The notes under the pieces: model-generated
What the model was told of the DNA's origin: nothing
What the model saw: the letters and a program-made list of their open reading frames with translations, nothing else
Database searches by the model: none
Position numbers and translations under genes: made by a program
Shown here: one piece after another, positions 12,080 through 24,132 of the stretch
Numbering within the stretch: position 1 is the stretch's first letter
How the letters are laid out: each line of letters opens with the position of its first letter
Source of the DNA: a virus
Reading direction: 5' to 3' (one strand)
Virus record (IMG/VR): IMGVR_UViG_3300046330_000062
Location: 1 to 36,285 of that record
Length of the DNA stretch: 36,285 nucleotides

Positions 12080-14017
12080 TTAGCGGATTGGGCAAGCACC
12101 AGTCGAACATTCAGCATCGTCAAGACCAATATTAGCCTCGTCAATAGCCGTGATAGTACGTGTATTGGCAACCAGCTCATTATACTGTTCCTCAGTGATC
12201 TCTTCCAACGGAGCTTGCTTGAAGCCGTGCTCTGAGTGTAACAGGAAAGACAATGACTTGTGGTTTGTCTTGTAGTTCTTCTTGAGGTACTTCTTGATCT
12301 CAGGCAGCTCTTCAGGACGATAGTACACAGTACAAGACACGGAGTTATCGCTCCAGACTTCCTGCAACCACTTAACTGTTTCCAGCTGAGAGATAGCTGT
12401 CATGTCCTTAGCCAACACAGCATGGTCTGGATGACGGAAGGGGAAGCTTACAACCACTGTTGAACGATCTTCAGTGCCGTCAAAGTTTTGCTGATACTCT
12501 ACATGGTAGCCATGGTCCTTACAGACCTGAACCAACGAGTGATTAGAGCTGATACGGATACGACGAATCATGAATCGAGCATAAGCAGGATGACAACCGG
12601 GAGTCACGCCGGGCAACAAAGACAAAGTACCTGAAGGCTTCACAGTGGTCAGTTTGATTGACTTATTGAAACCGTTCTTAGCACTGTACTCATTGTCGTA
12701 TTCACGGATCTTACCGTATGTCTCGTTCAACCATGATTTCTGTTCTTCGGTACATTGCAAGACGCCTGTGATACCAATACCCATTCGCATGTTCTCGTGA
12801 ACGATAGCCTCTGTGACCTTTTGGTGACACTGGAGCGCCAACGAGTGCTTGTTAATACGGTACAACAAAGTGCAGACATCAAGAAGCTCTTCTTTGCTAG
12901 AGATATTAGGCAAGAACACTTCTGCAAGGCAACAGGTTTCACCGTCAGCCAAAGACTGCTCAGCACATGGGTTATAGCCTTGTACTTTGGGATCTGGATA
13001 CTGAGTTTCACCCAATCGTCCGATCTTTCGTGAGAGCTTGAGGTTGATGAGGCCGTAAGGTTCGCCTTTGCCTTCATAACCATCCCAGAAGAAGTCGTGC
13101 AGATCTCCAATATCGTGACACACGACTGAGTTGTTGGACATGGCTCTCCATGAGGGGATATTGCCCAAGTCCCATCGCTTAGCAAGTAGATATTCCACAT
13201 CGTCAGCATCTCCAATAGCAATCTGAGCACTTCGACGCACGTTACCTGCAACGACAACAGCACCGATAATGTTCATAATGTCCAAGCAATCAACAGGACG
13301 GAGCTGCTTACCTGCACGTTTCTCCAAGACCTTACTGATCTGCTCAATACCCCACACCAAATCCTCTGGACCTGAAGCTGTACCGCCAAAGCCTTTGATA
13401 GGAGCGCCTTTAGAGCGAATCAGTTGTGTCGAGTAGCTAAAAGTTTGCTTACCTGAGCTGTGAGCCAAGAAAGCAGCTTTGAGCGTCTTACCAAGAAGAG
13501 CAACCCAGCCTTCACGACTGTCAGGGACAATAAAATCAGCCCCACTATCGCTAGAACGAATAGGGCACTTAAAATCAAGATTAACTGGAGGAAGTTTATT
13601 AACATTTTCTTTCTGAATATTGTAGCCAACGCCTGAGCCAAGCATCAACATATCCATAGCCCAAGTGAACGGCTCCACAGGCTTATCCACTGTACGGAAA
13701 GCACAGTTTTGAAGGCTAGAGAGGCCCAACTTATCCACTGTGTCCGTACCTAACTGCCACCAGAAACGACCTGCTACAGAGCCTTTAAGACCTAAGAGGT
13801 AGTTACGCAGTCGTTGTTCTTCATCCTTAGAGAAGCCGCATTTGAGCTGCTCATCACAGGCTTTAATGACACGTTCTACGGTGTCAGGAAACTCTTCTGT
13901 AGGGCTGTTGATGTCGTTCTCATCCAAGCGGCGAGCATAGGTACGCTTGTATGTCAAATAGCCTACTGAAGACCAAGGAGTACCCACTTCATACATATCT
14001 TTTGTCGTATCGTTCAT
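12080..14017 (-). CDS. nrdJ: Class II (adenosylcobalamin) ribonucleoside-triphosphate reductase
   Basis: Reduces ribonucleoside triphosphates to dNTPs with a cobalamin-generated thiyl radical. The 645-residue protein matches the monomeric Lactobacillus-type enzyme: Cys105 in LQNCAF (redox partner), NPCAEQ at 349-354 with radical Cys351 and Glu353, Cys362 exactly 11 residues later (second redox Cys, same spacing as C408/C419 of the L. leichmannii enzyme), and a C-terminal Cys637/Cys642 pair with four residues between, as in C731/C736. All catalytic residues appear intact. It is shorter than the bacterial enzyme (about 740). Needs host B12. The start overlaps the preceding stop (ATGA); the redoxin follows. 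Confidence 0.93.
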   Translation of the reverse strand: MNDTTKDMYEVGTPWSSVGYLTYKRTYARRLDENDINSPTEEFPDTVERVIKACDEQLKCGFSKDEEQRLRNYLLGLKGSVAGRFWWQLGTDTVDKLGLSSLQNCAFRTVDKPVEPFTWAMDMLMLGSGVGYNIQKENVNKLPPVNLDFKCPIRSSDSGADFIVPDSREGWVALLGKTLKAAFLAHSSGKQTFSYSTQLIRSKGAPIKGFGGTASGPEDLVWGIEQISKVLEKRAGKQLRPVDCLDIMNIIGAVVVAGNVRRSAQIAIGDADDVEYLLAKRWDLGNIPSWRAMSNNSVVCHDIGDLHDFFWDGYEGKGEPYGLINLKLSRKIGRLGETQYPDPKVQGYNPCAEQSLADGETCCLAEVFLPNISSKEELLDVCTLLYRINKHSLALQCHQKVTEAIVHENMRMGIGITGVLQCTEEQKSWLNETYGKIREYDNEYSAKNGFNKSIKLTTVKPSGTLSLLPGVTPGCHPAYARFMIRRIRISSNHSLVQVCKDHGYHVEYQQNFDGTEDRSTVVVSFPFRHPDHAVLAKDMTAISQLETVKWLQEVWSDNSVSCTVYYRPEELPEIKKYLKKNYKTNHKSLSFLLHSEHGFKQAPLEEITEEQYNELVANTRTITAIDEANIGLDDAECSTGACPIR

Positions 14018-17539: not shown

Positions 17540-17985
17540 CAAGACATGCTTTCTTCAATAAGTTGATCTTTTGCTTTACGAGCTGCAATTATAGCGTCAA
17601 CTCGATGTTCAAAAGTACCAACATACTTCTGACCAATACGCGCTCTCCAACCTTTACCGTTTTTAGACACACTCAAAGCTCGGTTATTTAGAGCGTTAAC
17701 TGTACGAGAAACTTGACGAAGGTTTTCAATACGGTTATCTAGCTTGTCCATGTTGATGTGGTCAATATCCATATAAGGATCAGGCCAAACACCCCTATGT
17801 AAATACCAGACAACATGGTGTGCCATGCGTAGTTTACCTTCACAATAGACTACACGGTATCCCTTAGCTGTTACATGTCCACATTCAGTGCCCACAAGAC
17901 ACTTCTTACGTGGGTTTAACCAAATAAGTTTACCGTCCGGTGTGTATTGAATTTGCTCTTCTACTTTTCGATTGGAAGCTGCCAT
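17539..17985 (-). CDS. HNH homing endonuclease
   Basis: A 148-residue free-standing HNH nuclease. The core is at about residues 55-95: AHHVVWYLHRG, MDIDHINMDKLDNRIENLR, matching the His-Asn-His pattern, with a C-terminal AP2-like DNA-binding region (WRARIGQKYVGTFEHRVDAI). It cuts specific DNA, typically in a related phage, to promote its own spread. It sits between the exonuclease and metallopeptidase genes, overlapping the exonuclease end by 25 bases, consistent with insertion at that boundary. Confidence 0.88.
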   Translation of the reverse strand: MAASNRKVEEQIQYTPDGKLIWLNPRKKCLVGTECGHVTAKGYRVVYCEGKLRMAHHVVWYLHRGVWPDPYMDIDHINMDKLDNRIENLRQVSRTVNALNNRALSVSKNGKGWRARIGQKYVGTFEHRVDAIIAARKAKDQLIEESMS

Positions 17986-18677
17986 CTATCGTTCTCCTTT
18001 CTCTGTAAATATAACAGATTCAAGTTTTCATCGACACGAAGTTGATTACCATCGTAAGCTTTGAGACAAGCGTCATAGTACTCCCTTTCAGTTTTACAAT
18101 CCTGTAGAAGCTTCTCTGCCTTCTTAGGTCCAATGCCTTTCAAGCCAATGATGTTGTCAGTACGATCCCCTGTGAGCACCTGTGTGAATAAGTTACGAAG
18201 ACCTTCTTCCTCAGTAACGTAGTATTCTTCATGCTTCACAAAGTTGTAATGCCAACCTGCGACTTGGTCTAGGTCTTTGTCAATGGAGACAATCCATCCA
18301 CCTGTCTTAGTAGCCTCAGTAGCCACTGCATCGTCTGCTTCTGAACCCTCTACCAGTTCTGCACCAAGGCGCTGGAGATGTTTACGAATAGCATCATAAT
18401 GCACTGGCCTCTTAGCGTCCTTACGGTTGCCTTTGTAAGGCTCAGTGACTGCTAGTTCATTGCGATAGTTACCCTTACCAGTGATGTACGCTTTGTAGTC
18501 ATCACATTTGAGGTCTTGGTAAACAATCTCATTGACTAACTTAGTCACTCTGCCTAAACAAATCTCTTCTAAGACATCCTCGGAAGCAAAACCAACTTTG
18601 TACACCAAAATGTCCGCGTCGATTATTGCCAGCCGAGGCTTAGGAGGCAGCTCGTTACTTACGAGGGTCTGCTGCAT
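17961..18677 (-). CDS. 5'-3' exonuclease (FEN/T5-T7 gp6 type)
   Basis: Degrades DNA from 5' ends and removes primers; in T7 the counterpart is gp6. The 238-residue protein has the family's acidic metal ligands: IIDADIL (Asp20, Asp22), EADDAVA (Asp115/116), DKDLDQ (Asp133, Asp135) and TGDRTDNI (Asp171, Asp174), followed by a helix-hairpin-helix GLKGIGPKKAEKLL. The ATG at 18677 overlaps the upstream gene by 23 bases without a clear RBS, suggesting translational coupling; a TTG at 18704 is the alternative. Confidence 0.88.
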   Translation of the reverse strand: MQQTLVSNELPPKPRLAIIDADILVYKVGFASEDVLEEICLGRVTKLVNEIVYQDLKCDDYKAYITGKGNYRNELAVTEPYKGNRKDAKRPVHYDAIRKHLQRLGAELVEGSEADDAVATEATKTGGWIVSIDKDLDQVAGWHYNFVKHEEYYVTEEEGLRNLFTQVLTGDRTDNIIGLKGIGPKKAEKLLQDCKTEREYYDACLKAYDGNQLRVDENLNLLYLQRKENDRWQLPIEK

Positions 18678-18837
18678 CTTGTACGTTTTTAACGAGATGC
18701 TCAACAGCTGTAGCTGTGTATGGTTGGTCTTTGTCGTTCATTGAACCACCCAAGGTAACCACATCAGCAACAACTGCTACAGGAATCTCAACAACAGAAA
18801 CTGCTGCTTTAACAACGGAGTTTAAGATACTGAACAT
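18655..18837 (-). CDS. Conserved small phage protein
   Basis: A 60-residue protein of a type often found in phage replication modules: a hydrophobic, Val/Ala-rich N-terminal half (VVKAAVSVVEIPVAVVADVV) and a polar C-terminal half ending DAADPRK. The N-terminal part may be membrane-associated, though it lacks a full-length transmembrane core. The function is unknown. It lies between the putative SSB and exonuclease genes and touches both. Confidence 0.65.
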   Translation of the reverse strand: MFSILNSVVKAAVSVVEIPVAVVADVVTLGGSMNDKDQPYTATAVEHLVKNVQDAADPRK

Positions 18838-19257: not shown

Positions 19258-19725
19258 TTATCCTTCAAAACAGTTTTGTGATGCTACAGGGTGTAGCGTT
19301 TTCTTTGCGGTTAAGTAAGCTTGTTTAGCTTCTTCTTGTGTATCAAAATAGCCAAGAAATTTACTTACCCCTTTTACCATGATTCTAGCATCATAGCGTT
19401 CTTTTCGTTTATTAAAACCTTTTCTTTTTACATTCTGGCTATTTTCAGATTTTGTAACTTCTCGAAGATTTGTAAAAACATTATTTGCTCTGTCATGATC
19501 AATGTGATCAATAAATAACAGTGGAAGTTGTCCTGTTACATACAACCAAGCAAGACGATGGGCGAGATGCGGTGTGTTCTTTATCTTGATTTGAACATAG
19601 CCGTCCGATCTCGTAAAACCAGCCTTCTTTCCTGCATATCTTCCTTGTTTCCAAGTAAATATCCCAGTTTCTTGGTTGTACTCTAACAACTTTTTTAACT
19701 CATTTGATGATGGAGGATCACTCAT
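19258..19725 (-). CDS. HNH homing endonuclease
   Basis: A 155-residue free-standing HNH nuclease, the second in this region. It has the core LAHRLAWLYVTGQLP, FIDHIDHDRANNVFTNLRE, and a C-terminal AP2-like part (YDARIMVKGVSKFLGYFD). Its neighbours on both sides are replication genes. AAAGGAAAAG upstream of the ATG gives it a strong RBS and a hairpin (19770-19784) precedes it, so it forms a small self-contained cassette. Its divergence from the 17539 copy suggests a separate arrival. Confidence 0.88.
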   Translation of the reverse strand: MSDPPSSNELKKLLEYNQETGIFTWKQGRYAGKKAGFTRSDGYVQIKIKNTPHLAHRLAWLYVTGQLPLLFIDHIDHDRANNVFTNLREVTKSENSQNVKRKGFNKRKERYDARIMVKGVSKFLGYFDTQEEAKQAYLTAKKTLHPVASQNCFEG

Positions 19726-19784: not shown

Positions 19785-19965
19785 GTAAATAACTGCCTTC
19801 TCGACGAGAGACAGCCTCTGCTTCATCCTCAATGTAATCAAGGGCCGCTGAGAGCACCAAGTATACATCGAGAATATCCATATCTGCTGAATGGTGAATC
19901 AAGAAACTCTCATCACTTATGTTCAACAGAATCTGTTGGGTTACTTTCGGTTCAAGGGGTTTCAT
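19780..19965 (-). CDS. Hypothetical acidic protein, 61 residues
   Basis: A small acidic, probably helical protein (DMDILDVYLVLSAALDYIED) of unknown function. Its ATG lies 14 bases before the end of the methyltransferase gene, with AAAGTAGAAA upstream. Size and overlap with the methyltransferase suggest it is co-expressed with it; no motif is recognised. Confidence 0.55.
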   Translation of the reverse strand: MKPLEPKVTQQILLNISDESFLIHHSADMDILDVYLVLSAALDYIEDEAEAVSRREGSYLQ

Positions 19966-20650
19966 TTTCTACTTTCATTATAGCCTTACCAATCAGTTCA
20001 GGTATAAAAGGAATAACAGCATTACCTAACTGTTTAAGTCTGTCCACCCTTTTGGGAACCCCATCATCCACTCTATGAAGACAGGATGACATTTTCCACC
20101 AATCCTTGCCGACAACGATGGCGTGTTCCTCGTAAATTCTGCTGGATAAGCTCCTTCCTTTGCTAGATGACACGTTGGGGTAGGCAATAATCCAGACTCT
20201 GTCCCTTTGATGCGGAGCGCCAATGGAGGCAGCGGAGATACAATGCCATTGTGCATCATACCCGATCTCAGCGAGTGTCCTGAGAACTGTTTCCAATCCT
20301 CTAGAGCGAAGCACTGAGACGTTTTCAATGATTGCGTATTTAGGTTTGATTTCATTGATGAGTCGTTGGAACTCGAACCACAATCCTGACCGTGCTCCTG
20401 CAAGACCTTTACCTGTCCCTGCTGTGGACAAGTCTTGACAAGGGAAGCCTCCACATATAACGTCAACTGCTCCAACATCTTCTCCTTTAAGTTTCTCAAC
20501 ATCTTCAAAGATAGGTACAGAAGGCCAGTGTTTCTGAAGAACTAACTTAGCTTTTTTGTCTATCTCACAAAACGCTACAGTCTCCATACCAGCTTTTTCT
20601 AAACCAATACTGAAACCACCTACACCACTAAACAAATCTAGCACTTTCAT
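19952..20650 (-). CDS. DNA (cytosine-5) methyltransferase
   Basis: Adds methyl groups to cytosine, probably to protect phage DNA from host restriction. The 232-residue protein has the C5-MTase motifs in order: I DLFSGVGGFSIGLE (residues 5-18), IV GGFPCQDLS with catalytic Cys71, VI ENV at 109-111, VIII QRDRVW at 148-153, and X LGNAVIP at 208-214. The target-recognition region is short. No restriction partner is present, so it is an orphan. A second frame is open through much of the gene (20026-20478, separate entry). The stop of the DNA polymerase gene and this start share a base. Confidence 0.92.
   Translation of the reverse strand: MKVLDLFSGVGGFSIGLEKAGMETVAFCEIDKKAKLVLQKHWPSVPIFEDVEKLKGEDVGAVDVICGGFPCQDLSTAGTGKGLAGARSGLWFEFQRLINEIKPKYAIIENVSVLRSRGLETVLRTLAEIGYDAQWHCISAASIGAPHQRDRVWIIAYPNVSSSKGRSLSSRIYEEHAIVVGKDWWKMSSCLHRVDDGVPKRVDRLKQLGNAVIPFIPELIGKAIMKVENETP
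20026..20478 (-). CDS. Candidate overlapping gene inside the methyltransferase
   Basis: A 150-residue ORF on the same strand, one base downstream in phase, lying wholly inside the methyltransferase gene. Its ATG at 20478 follows AAAGGAG, though only 3 bases away. The product contains SGMMHNGIVSPLPPLALRI, GTESGLLPTPTCHL and a C-terminal FIEWMMGFPKGWTDL. From memory these blocks occur as standalone or C-terminal parts of phage methyltransferase-linked proteins. The GTESGLLPTPT block is the frame-shifted reading of the RDRVWIIAYPN region. It may be an overlapping gene or a relic frame of an ancestral longer enzyme. Not experimentally supported. Confidence 0.4.
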   Translation of the reverse strand: MLEQLTLYVEASLVKTCPQQGQVKVLQEHGQDCGSSSNDSSMKSNLNTQSLKTSQCFALEDWKQFSGHSLRSGMMHNGIVSPLPPLALRIKGTESGLLPTPTCHLAKEGAYPAEFTRNTPSLSARIGGKCHPVFIEWMMGFPKGWTDLNS

Positions 20651-22365
20651 CAGTGAGTTTCCCTCCAGTTACGGCCTACCTTGTATTCCCCATCGAGAGG
20701 GCAACGTAGATTATACGCTAGACCTGCATCAATGATTGCTTGCTTACCTGCTTGACCTACTAAGTCAGCTATATCTGCTTTGCATTCTATCTGAAATTCA
20801 TCGTGGACATTTGCGGTAAAGCGAGCATCCCAATTATTCTTCTTGATTGTCTCATTTAAGATACACAGTGCCTTCTTCATGACGATTGCACCTGCCCCTT
20901 GAAGCAAGCTATTGAGTGCCGCATGTTCAGAACGAACCCAAATCTTGCGACCATCAAGCCCCGGTACAGAGCCCTTGCCCGCATATACGGATACCTTATC
21001 ACGTAGACGCTTGAGTGCGGGAGTCCCTTTAAGAAAGGAATCGATGAGCTTTTGTCCATCCTTAGCACTACCGCCGACAATCGCTCCAATCTTCGCCGGC
21101 CCTGCCCCGTAAAGCCACGCGTAGCAAAATGTCTTCGCTTGGTCACGTGTTTGTAAGCCGGCTGCTTTTTGATTAACCGTGTGGACATCCGTACCGTCCT
21201 TAGAGCTTCCCTCGGTGACAGTCTTGACATACTTCTCATCCTTCATGTAATGAGCCAACATACGTAGCTCTAAACCACTTGCATCACATCCAACTAGGAC
21301 GTTACCTTCCTCGACTGTCCAGCACTGACGACATTCAGGGCCATAGGGTGAGCCTGAGTTAGGAATCTGAGCCATGTTAGGTTTCATGTGAGTCATACGG
21401 CCTGTTACAGCTCCATTAGTAATCACACGTCCATGTACACGCCCATCAGAGCCTATAACTTCTAACCATGACTCAATCTGAGCGATACGCTTTTGAAGCA
21501 TCATATACTCAGCAAGGAGTCCTGCAATAGGATACTTCAAACCCATAAGAGTACCTTCATCAACGATGATTGAACCCTTCTCGGTCTTCTTAGTAGGCTT
21601 CCAACCTAAGCCGATAAGTTTCTCAGCGATCTGCTGTCTGCTCGCAGGGTTGAAGGTAATAGTCTCACTCTTGAGTTGCTTACCTGTCTTCTCTGAGAAT
21701 CTCTCAACCTCATAGGGTGGATAGAGTTCCTGCATCTTGTCGTAGATGACTCCCATCTTGAGTTTCAAATCAGACAAGAGACAAGTAGCGTGAACTACAT
21801 CGAGCTTGAATCCGTTTTTCTCTTGCTTGTTGATGATTGCCGCTACAGAATGTTCCAAGTGTACAGAATCACGAGAGAAACCTTTAGAGTCAATCTCAGC
21901 TTCTAAGTGGTTGAAGACCCGCACAAGCACGTCAACGTCCCGCTTACAATAATGCTCAAGCAGAGCCATGTGAGGATTGTCATAACATTCTCCTTTGTAC
22001 TCTTGTTTACGGTTGTTTAACCATTCCCAGACACGTTCGTATTCAATCTTCGCCAGCTTCAGTGTCTCTCCCCAACTTGCGAGACTGTGTCCGTTTTCTC
22101 TTGTTGGTTCGATCAAGCGACTTACCACCAGAGGATCGTAAGCTTTCTTCAAACCAATCTTCGTCCCCCAAACCTTGTTGAGCACGGGAAAGTCGAACGA
22201 GATCCCGTTGTATGCGATCAACTGTGAGGCCTTTTCTAAGTAGGCCGTTAGTCCACTTGGATTGCTCCATACGATTGTTTCTCCTGTTTGGATGTCTTGA
22301 GTAACTGCTAAGTGAATCGTGTTGTGATCCATAGAAGTTTCAATATCCACTGCGATTTGTGTCAT
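20650..22365 (-). CDS. DNA polymerase, family A (T7-like) with 3'-5' exonuclease
   Basis: Replicative polymerase of 571 residues (T7 gp5 has 704). N-terminal exonuclease: DIE at 7-9, YNGISFDFPVLNK (Exo II), and HYCKRDVDV at 138-146 (Exo III), so proofreading looks intact. Polymerase: motif A CDASGLELRML with Asp361, motif B RDQAKTFCYAWLYGAG at 407-422, motif C NVHDEF with His521/Asp522. The O-helix residue equivalent to E. coli Phe762 is Tyr415, the T7-like state that tolerates dideoxynucleotides and is associated with lytic phages. A thioredoxin-binding loop is not evident. Confidence 0.95.
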   Translation of the reverse strand: MTQIAVDIETSMDHNTIHLAVTQDIQTGETIVWSNPSGLTAYLEKASQLIAYNGISFDFPVLNKVWGTKIGLKKAYDPLVVSRLIEPTRENGHSLASWGETLKLAKIEYERVWEWLNNRKQEYKGECYDNPHMALLEHYCKRDVDVLVRVFNHLEAEIDSKGFSRDSVHLEHSVAAIINKQEKNGFKLDVVHATCLLSDLKLKMGVIYDKMQELYPPYEVERFSEKTGKQLKSETITFNPASRQQIAEKLIGLGWKPTKKTEKGSIIVDEGTLMGLKYPIAGLLAEYMMLQKRIAQIESWLEVIGSDGRVHGRVITNGAVTGRMTHMKPNMAQIPNSGSPYGPECRQCWTVEEGNVLVGCDASGLELRMLAHYMKDEKYVKTVTEGSSKDGTDVHTVNQKAAGLQTRDQAKTFCYAWLYGAGPAKIGAIVGGSAKDGQKLIDSFLKGTPALKRLRDKVSVYAGKGSVPGLDGRKIWVRSEHAALNSLLQGAGAIVMKKALCILNETIKKNNWDARFTANVHDEFQIECKADIADLVGQAGKQAIIDAGLAYNLRCPLDGEYKVGRNWRETH

Positions 22366-22366
22366 G

Positions 22367-22513
22367 TTACTTTAAGTTCAAGAATAGCCCGATCTGGGCA
22401 AATGAGTATCCTAACCACATGATACCAGCCCCCATGTCACCTTTTAGCCACTGTAGTACGCCTACAACACTGTAACCTACACCGATGGTTCCCACGATAA
22501 TCATTTCAATCAT
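22367..22513 (-). CDS. Small membrane protein, 48 residues
   Basis: A micro-ORF between the primase-helicase and polymerase genes, starting inside the primase stop (ATGA) after GGAGG. It has two hydrophobic stretches (IIVGTIGVGYSVVGVL and IMWLGYSFAQIGLFLNL) separated by a short polar turn, predicting a hairpin membrane protein. Function unknown; it might tether replication to the membrane or modulate host functions (speculative). Confidence 0.7.
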   Translation of the reverse strand: MIEMIIVGTIGVGYSVVGVLQWLKGDMGAGIMWLGYSFAQIGLFLNLK

Positions 22514-24132
22514 AACTCCTCCATTGTTACTTCAATCATTCTACCTGTATCCATATCGTACTTTAATGAGCAAGCTGGCCCAGTGAGTCCGTTGTACCTG
22601 TTCTTTGCAACTGCTACCTTGGTAGTGTGACGTACTTCAGGGTCTTCACTCATGGAGTTTCGTTCAAGAGTGATAACAGCATCGGACAACTGAGCAATAG
22701 CACCAGAGCCACGTAGCTGAGATAAGGATACCGCCGAACCATCTTCATGCCCTTTGTCAGTGTTAGGTCGTTTAAGGTGTGATACGCAGATTAAGGTAAT
22801 ACCTGTCTCTTGTACCAGTGTACGCAAGCGAGTCATCAAGACATCAATAGACTTGCGCTCATCATTCCCATCCATACCAGAAACAACGAGGCTAATATGA
22901 TCGAGAAAGACAACGCGACAGTCACAAGCACGTGCCATATATCGTATACGATTGAGTACATTATCAATGGCAAGAGAGCCAAAATGGTCAAAGAGAAAGA
23001 CACGATTAGTTCCGAGTGTAGCATCGAAAGCCTCCTTCAATTCTTGTTCTGTGACGGGAGTATCTGGCAAATGGAGTTTCTTATTTGCGTGCAGAGACAT
23101 GATGGATCTTGCAGTCTTTCGCACCGATTCCTCAAGGAACATGCCTCCAACGTTCCATTTAGTTGTTTCAAGAATCCGATAAAGGATTTCTCGTAAGAAC
23201 TGTGATTTCCCCAACCCACTCCCTGCTGTGACAGTGATAAGCTCTGCGCTTCGTAGTCCATACAAGAGTTCGTTGAGCCCTTTGAAGGGATAGAAGGCTT
23301 CTGCAACGGGCTCAGGTGTAGATACGCTGTCCCAAAGGGAGCTTGCGGCGATGATGCCATCGGGTACATAACTTTCAGCTCGCCACCACTGATTAACGTA
23401 TTCAACCCCTCTGCCGGCAGATAGATAATCGCATGCATCTTTGCACTCCTTCAAATGTTTAACAATCTTAACCTTGTTACCGAACAACTCTGCAACTTCC
23501 TTAGCTGCCTTCTGTCCAACTTCATCGGCATCGAAGCAGATAACGATAGTCTCGAAACTATCTAGGTACTCATACTGAGCCTTGCAGTCTTTAACAGCCG
23601 CTGAAGCCCCATTACGGATGCTCACAGTAGGCCATTTTGATCCTGTCATCTGATATGAAGCCAAAGCATCTAACTCACCTTCTACGATGGTGATGTACTT
23701 ACCTGCTTTTTGAAATAAGTTCTGTCCAAAGAGAGTAGCTTTGTTGAAGTTCCCTGAAATAGAGAAGGTTTTGTTAGCTACATTACGGATCTTCTCAGCT
23801 ACCTTAGCACCTGTCTCATCAAAGTAAGGATAGTAATGAAGTCCTGAATATACATCTTGTGTAACACCAAAGTATTCGCACGTATCACGTGAGATACCTC
23901 GATCTACGATAGCCTTAACTTCCCCTTGTGTCTTCATTGTAAATACTTTCGTTTTTGTAGGTACTTGTTGATAAGTACTAACGTTTTGTGATTCATCTGA
24001 GGCCAGTGTGTACGTATTGCAACTAAAGCAAAACTGATGACCATCATCATAGATGGATGAACAATCAGAGCCACCACAATGCTCACAAGGGCCATGACGT
24101 AAGAACTTAGAAGCAACTTTTAGATTGCTCAT
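22510..24132 (-). CDS. DNA primase-helicase (T7 gp4-like)
   Basis: Unwinds DNA and makes primers at the fork; 540 residues (T7 gp4A has 566). In order: zinc-binding domain Cys16, Cys19, Cys35, Cys38; TOPRIM domain with VEGELDA at 150-156 and DAD at 201-203; RecA-like helicase with Walker A GSGLGKS at 304-310, FLEES at 332-336, Walker B VVFLDH at 407-412 and a later VSHLKRP. All essential motifs are present, so both primase and helicase activities are expected. It lies directly upstream of the polymerase gene. Confidence 0.95.
   Translation of the reverse strand: MSNLKVASKFLRHGPCEHCGGSDCSSIYDDGHQFCFSCNTYTLASDESQNVSTYQQVPTKTKVFTMKTQGEVKAIVDRGISRDTCEYFGVTQDVYSGLHYYPYFDETGAKVAEKIRNVANKTFSISGNFNKATLFGQNLFQKAGKYITIVEGELDALASYQMTGSKWPTVSIRNGASAAVKDCKAQYEYLDSFETIVICFDADEVGQKAAKEVAELFGNKVKIVKHLKECKDACDYLSAGRGVEYVNQWWRAESYVPDGIIAASSLWDSVSTPEPVAEAFYPFKGLNELLYGLRSAELITVTAGSGLGKSQFLREILYRILETTKWNVGGMFLEESVRKTARSIMSLHANKKLHLPDTPVTEQELKEAFDATLGTNRVFLFDHFGSLAIDNVLNRIRYMARACDCRVVFLDHISLVVSGMDGNDERKSIDVLMTRLRTLVQETGITLICVSHLKRPNTDKGHEDGSAVSLSQLRGSGAIAQLSDAVITLERNSMSEDPEVRHTTKVAVAKNRYNGLTGPACSLKYDMDTGRMIEVTMEEL

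Follow-up and report, generated by a model that had tools for sequence, protein, structure and literature searches.

A phage DNA (cytosine-5) methyltransferase probably made as two polypeptides from overlapping reading frames

The window analysed here, the whole 36,285-nucleotide stretch of viral DNA, carries two overlapping reading frames that probably encode a single DNA (cytosine-5) methyltransferase as two polypeptides. We give this reading, including the predicted assembly and activity of the pair, a probability of about 0.86. The longer chain, alpha, is a Dcm-type C5-cytosine methyltransferase of 232 amino acids (19952..20650, minus strand) with the large domain (motifs I-VIII) and motif X. 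The shorter chain, beta (150 amino acids, 20026..20478, minus strand), is read in frame +1 relative to alpha and is predicted to be the small, target-recognition subunit, based on its open frame, its substitutions, its match to phrog_1008 and its homologues. The sequence data show beta to be a genuine, conserved gene, and its constrained part falls exactly where ordinary C5-methyltransferases carry their recognition domain and motif IX. A two-polypeptide C5-methyltransferase with a separate motif IX is already known, and an 'internal gene' has been annotated in Paenibacillus phages. The placement of recognition in beta, the widespread occurrence of the arrangement and the change of frame of motif IX between lineages are new here. 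Long overlapping genes on the same strand are often doubted in prokaryotes; beta has a clear likely function, strong dual-coding statistics and hundreds of relatives. The overlap explains why both frames resemble methyltransferase families, and it shifts the probable seat of specificity away from the large protein that is annotated and onto a small one that is overlooked.

The ATG of alpha overlaps the TGA that ends the DNA polymerase gene (TGATG). Motifs I, IV (PCQ), VI (ENV), VIII (RxR) and X were all found in alpha, in this order, as in C5-cytosine methyltransferases. The catalytic cysteine of motif IV lies in PCQ (20435..20443, minus strand), where P70 and C71 are invariant and Q72 is at least 90% conserved. 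Motif X is represented by LGNAV (20015..20029, minus strand), with an invariant N210 and, in the model, a helix that follows at residues 215-230. Despite this set of motifs, the recognition domain and motif IX were not found in the alpha chain. A Pfam search matched alpha to PF00145 (DNA_methylase, 2e-50) over profile positions 1-168 of 324 only, TIGR00675 was matched over 1-168 of 329, and the alignment to M.HhaI covered residues 13-173 of that enzyme. Bacterial alphas are equally short on PF00145 (e.g. 4-169 and 5-166), whereas ordinary enzymes from the same genomes reach about 323. The AF2 model of alpha (pLDDT 78, about 90+ in the large domain) is confident over most of residues 1-160, falls below 50 exactly at 161-209 and is confident again in the motif X helix. 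M.HhaI was its top Foldseek match in the PDB (163 columns, rmsd 1.5 A, 33-34% identity). The disordered segment coincides with the stretch over the recognition module and motif IX of beta. Residues 161-209 (20024..20170, minus strand) are unconstrained in the alpha frame and carry a beta-type substitution signature, as expected of a passive linker under these parts of beta.

Beta lies within an ORF of 160 codons (20026-20508, minus strand), one base downstream of the alpha frame. The first-pass annotation had pointed out this ORF, had quoted peptides from it as +1 readings of stretches of the Dcm gene and had proposed a start at ATG 20478 with AAAGGAG upstream; all three are present in the sequence. 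ATG 20478 is the best start for beta; L012 and L013, the two nearest relatives of the window, share it, as does L078. The putative ribosome-binding site AAAGGAG (20482..20488, minus strand) occupies the same place before the ATG in these three loci, and the conserved ATG of both L012 and L013 comes seven codons downstream of the final stop in the +1 frame. Across the wider family, the start codons of beta differ. The upstream part of the ORF (20479..20508, minus strand) is open and probably untranslated, its TTG being merely the first possible start codon.

The second frame is open far beyond what the alpha protein and its codon usage would produce. We exchanged the codons of alpha among synonymous positions, which keeps both protein and codon usage, and compared the longest open runs. 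The open run in the +1 frame of alpha spans 171 codons; the shuffles averaged 57, and one in 20,000 was as long, while the +2 frame is ordinary. Of 111 different alpha genes, 99 had a +1 frame that exceeded its shuffles at P <= 0.01, and four had a +2 frame that did so. The first-pass annotation had regarded stops in the second frame of related phages as evidence against a gene; instead, +1 stops were depleted across loci. In 27 landmarked loci that were fetched with alpha only and not selected for beta, the successive segments that begin 14 codons ahead of PCQ and run past motif VIII to the end of the variable region contained 0/0/0/0 stops in the +1 frame where 13/35/38/30 were expected, and the motif IX block contained one where 19 were expected. 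Outside beta, +1 stops were in excess, both before it (88 versus 65 expected) and after it (69 versus 34). As the same depletion is seen in loci fetched with alpha, it was not produced by searching with beta.

The positions at which substitutions accumulate show which frame is constrained. Position 3 of beta codons falls on position 1 of alpha codons, and position 3 of alpha on position 2 of beta. Selection on alpha only would thus place most changes at alpha position 3, and selection on beta only at alpha position 1. We divided the gene into seven segments (start-PCQ, PCQ-ENV, ENV-VIII, variable, IX, IX to the beta stop, and after beta) and calculated the ratio of changes at alpha positions 3 and 1 (p3/p1), leaving out L064, in which alpha is frameshifted. 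For 29 independent viral pairs, which share no sequences but, like the bacterial pairs, belong to one family and were compared pair by pair, the ratios were 2.8, 2.7, 1.6, 0.68, 0.61, 2.7 and 2.5. The same segments in 24 bacterial pairs gave 2.1, 2.3, 1.6, 0.85, 0.46, 2.3 and 1.5. In phages and bacteria alike, the interval in which the signature changes over to the beta frame is exactly the one that separates alpha motifs VIII and X. The ratio for the variable region, 0.68 in the viral pairs, was 0.38 in close pairs and ranged from 0.31 to 0.85 across tests. Beta is therefore the main coding frame in the variable and motif IX stretch, where the alpha reading is passive, and both frames are constrained from motif VI to motif VIII. 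In the first 50 residues of beta, up to ENV, stops are avoided, yet the frame-flip signature is absent.

The window itself shows the same pattern. In comparisons with L012 and L013, the changes at the third position of alpha codons, taken per codon along the gene, were 0.49-0.51, 0.35-0.40, 0.08, 0.02 and 0.46-0.51. The value thus starts at 0.49-0.51 before beta, is suppressed to 0.02 in the variable and motif IX stretch and returns to 0.46-0.51 past the beta stop (Fisher 7e-6 and 5e-7). A synonymous-site comparison of this kind had been proposed by the first-pass annotation, which offered either a true overlapping gene or two methyltransferase-related families that arose from each other by a change of frame. 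The overlapping gene is borne out by the open-frame statistics, the conserved start, the relatives and the synonymous suppression in the clade of the window. Each of the three results that the annotation had listed as refuting was looked for, and none was seen. The other suggestion does not hold as worded; a frame change does belong to the history of the locus, but it took place between domains of one enzyme, with recognition and motif IX displaced.

Three blocks of beta stand out by their conservation. SGMMHNG (20245..20265, minus strand) lies over GYDAQW of alpha, in the ENV-VIII segment where p3/p1 is 1.6 and both frames are constrained, and its G73 and G78 are at least 90% conserved. LLPTPT and KEGAYPAEFTRNTPSL (20092..20190, minus strand) form the predicted target-recognition module; P99, T100 and P101 are at least 90% conserved and the beta frame is constrained. 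The third block, CHPVFIEWMMGFPKGWTDL (20035..20091, minus strand), is motif IX, with an invariant M139, at least 90% conservation of P132, E136, P142, W145 and T146, and a p3/p1 of 0.61. The C-terminal peptide EWMMGFPKGWTDL of beta is thus motif IX, and DDGVPKRVDRL of alpha is largely its out-of-frame shadow. We named the block motif IX from its position and because the same block precedes motif X within one chain in 13 loci. Profile comparison agrees weakly: in an hhalign comparison of beta with full-length C5-methyltransferases, the sole match fell on their motif IX and was short (17 columns, P 0.028). Beta of the window carries one recognition module, KEGAYPAE, which was seen in 64 loci; the KEGAYPAE and KDNGKSPAE modules are the last before motif IX in the loci listed.

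A database search, also suggested earlier, found homologues of beta in phages, plasmids and bacteria, with 108 phage records matched. The beta ORF matched phrog_1008 ('DNA methyltransferase') at 3.5e-21, with the best stretch at residues 9-120 of the 160-codon ORF. Pfam and NCBIfam searches with beta gave nothing convincing, and sequence searches of the PDB with beta and with a beta profile gave no match. The AF2 model of beta is poor (mean pLDDT 53.5, confident over residues 120-150 only), and a Foldseek search with it found no matching fold in the PDB. Despite the poor model and the absence of PDB matches, we infer from the sequence that beta probably takes the small-domain fold. The poor model would fit a domain that folds solely against its partner, although this is a guess.

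Scans of viral contigs returned 57 loci with alpha as the query and 80 with beta. Of 148 loci, 135 have the motif IX block of beta in frame +1 relative to alpha. Bacterial and archaeal genomes, when scanned, gave at least 357 confirmed relatives; among the 80 of these that were examined, 75 had beta in the +1 frame and five had the motif IX block in alpha. In a sample of Gammaproteobacteria, seven of 185 genomes, counting the centre genome, gave a match, one of which was broken by stops. The 13 loci in which LNPxWVEWLMGFP is read in the alpha frame and is followed by motif X (viral L042, L045, L047 and L049-L053; bacterial L196, L199, L207, L218 and L226; L094 was set aside) still have the recognition region in the +1 frame. 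They serve as a natural control (12 distinct sequences, six independent pairs), in which p3/p1 was 3.8 in the motif IX block, an alpha-type value, and 0.44, a beta-type value, in the variable region. As the variable region stays beta-type in these loci, recognition remains encoded in the +1 frame even where motif IX has left it. The start of beta seems to be later here, at an ATG that directly follows two stops. In L094 (1335-1982), the frame changes between the recognition module and motif IX, probably through one recent indel, which would reflect a broken gene or an assembly error. A third arrangement was found in mycobacteriophage Wizard007 (L005, 1128-2223), where recognition, motif IX and motif X (IGNGVVVQQA) are all in the +1 frame; gp76 contains motifs I-VIII, and gp75 contains recognition modules with motifs IX and X.

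Most relatives have one to four PTP modules. Up to four in tandem were observed in beta of L014, L036, L038, L040, L114, L148 and others, and the modules recur in differing combinations across beta proteins, as if shuffled. We consider it somewhat probable that this is an old, large family of phage and bacterial C5-methyltransferases that keeps an exchangeable recognition domain and a catalytic domain in different frames, with the frame returning at one of three points depending on lineage (before motif IX, after it, or never). Specificity modules could then be swapped or stacked within one frame, and the catalytic chain would run across them as a linker.

In the mechanism that we propose, ribosomes would start beta at ATG 20478 through the internal AAAGGAG on the same mRNA. 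Alpha (motifs I-VIII and X) would supply the large domain, and beta (recognition and motif IX), moved to the other frame, the small one. The frame-0 reading of alpha between motifs VIII and X would be a floppy linker, beta would dock on alpha as the small domain and read the target sequence, and the pair would methylate the phage's own DNA. By analogy with orphan phage methyltransferases generally, this methylation would most likely guard against host restriction.

Internal initiation has a competitor in programmed +1 frameshifting after motif VIII, which would yield a catalytic-recognition fusion. Motifs I-VIII, recognition and motif IX follow one another as they do in a normal single-chain enzyme, and in Wizard007 motif X is in the +1 frame too, both of which would suit a frameshift. 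We nevertheless regard it as unlikely. The avoidance of stops begins 14 codons ahead of PCQ (0 versus 37 expected), far upstream of a useful shift point, and in near relatives a Shine-Dalgarno sequence and an ATG closely follow the last stop. A second shift back would also be required, because motif X is in the frame of alpha. Finally, the loci with motif IX in alpha have +1 stops after PCQ, and their +1 frame becomes open only further on, immediately behind a double stop and an ATG.

The other two readings concern beta itself. It could be real but have a separate role, for example as a regulator, a DNA mimic or an anti-restriction protein, with alpha a complete enzyme alone. The lack of a convincing match to Pfam, NCBIfam or the PDB is in keeping with this, but alpha is without two parts that known C5-methyltransferases need, a recognition domain and motif IX, and beta provides them in the right order. 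The motif IX block of beta moreover stands in the alpha chain, before motif X, in 13 loci, and M.EcoHK31I is a precedent for a divided enzyme (PMC3404938). A separate role thus seems as improbable as frameshifting. That the second frame is a mere shadow, in which conserved alpha residues and codon bias fake a family, is considerably less probable still. SGMM..NG and GLLPTPT do sit over conserved alpha motifs in the ENV-VIII segment, where both frames are constrained. However, the +1 frame is without stops while the +2 frame is normal, substitutions in the variable and motif IX stretch favour the third position of beta, and the signature follows motif IX when it switches frame. Substitutions at the third position of beta are beyond the reach of selection on alpha alone and therefore contradict a shadow. 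A spurious ORF was likewise rejected on stop statistics and codon positions.

Among known enzymes, the two-subunit methyltransferase that we propose is closest to M.EcoHK31I, whose small gene reportedly lies inside the large gene in another frame. As described in PMC3404938, which cites Lee, Kam and Shaw 1995, M.EcoHK31I (YGGCCR) has motifs I-VIII, motif X and a predicted recognition domain in its larger subunit and motif IX alone in a small polypeptide. Alpha likewise resembles a large subunit with motifs I-VIII and X, and motif IX is in a separate, smaller polypeptide, beta; the likeness lies in this division of the motifs. Unlike the recognition domain that the same account predicts in the larger subunit of M.EcoHK31I, recognition here is placed in the small subunit by the codon positions (p3/p1 0.31-0.85). 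The phage gene pair also differs in having no restriction enzyme gene identified alongside. M.AquI (CYCGRG) is likewise one enzyme in two polypeptides, split in the variable region, with motifs IX-X in the small one (PMC3404938). The window differs from M.AquI in having motif X (LGNAV) in the alpha frame, and gp76/gp75 of Wizard007 is the M.AquI-like arrangement of this methyltransferase family. M.HhaI and M.HaeIII share the division into a large and a small domain (PMC3404938). Unlike alpha, their single chains hold the recognition domain and motif IX.

The closest annotated counterpart is the pair g55 and 'g55 internal gene' of Paenibacillus larvae phage Shelly (NC_041909), the latter being beta. 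One gene of this pair is likewise nested in the other, their relative frames are those of beta and alpha, and PTP modules and LNPEWVECLMGFPIGWTD are present; Shelly has more than one PTP-type module where the window has one, and its record gives the overlap no function. Multispecific C5-methyltransferases of Bacillus phages carry tandem recognition domains. Several relatives of the window similarly have two to four tandem recognition-like modules between motifs VIII and IX, but in this family it is the overlapping frame that encodes them. Papers on the Paenibacillus phages assign the internal gene no function, and a description of the arrangement as widespread, or an explanation of it, was not found in the open-licence literature searched, where absence proves little.

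Among the phage and plasmid records L001-L008, L010 and L229-L233, usually one frame is listed: alpha in L003, L004, L006, L008, L010 and L230-L233, beta in L001, L002 and L007, and both in L005 and L229. The E. coli RefSeq matches list a DNA cytosine methyltransferase and not the second subunit. Most phage records inspected thus miss one subunit, which offers a concrete fix for annotation pipelines.

Around the methyltransferase, the window encodes ribonucleotide reductase, exonuclease, DNA polymerase A and primase/helicase (12080-14017, 17961-18704 and 20650-24132, minus strand), a set that constitutes the T7-like replication module of a phage. Downstream of the methyltransferase, an ORF at 19258-19725 (minus strand) matches HNH_3 endonuclease (2.6e-15), has a weak AP2-like tail and likely encodes a homing endonuclease.
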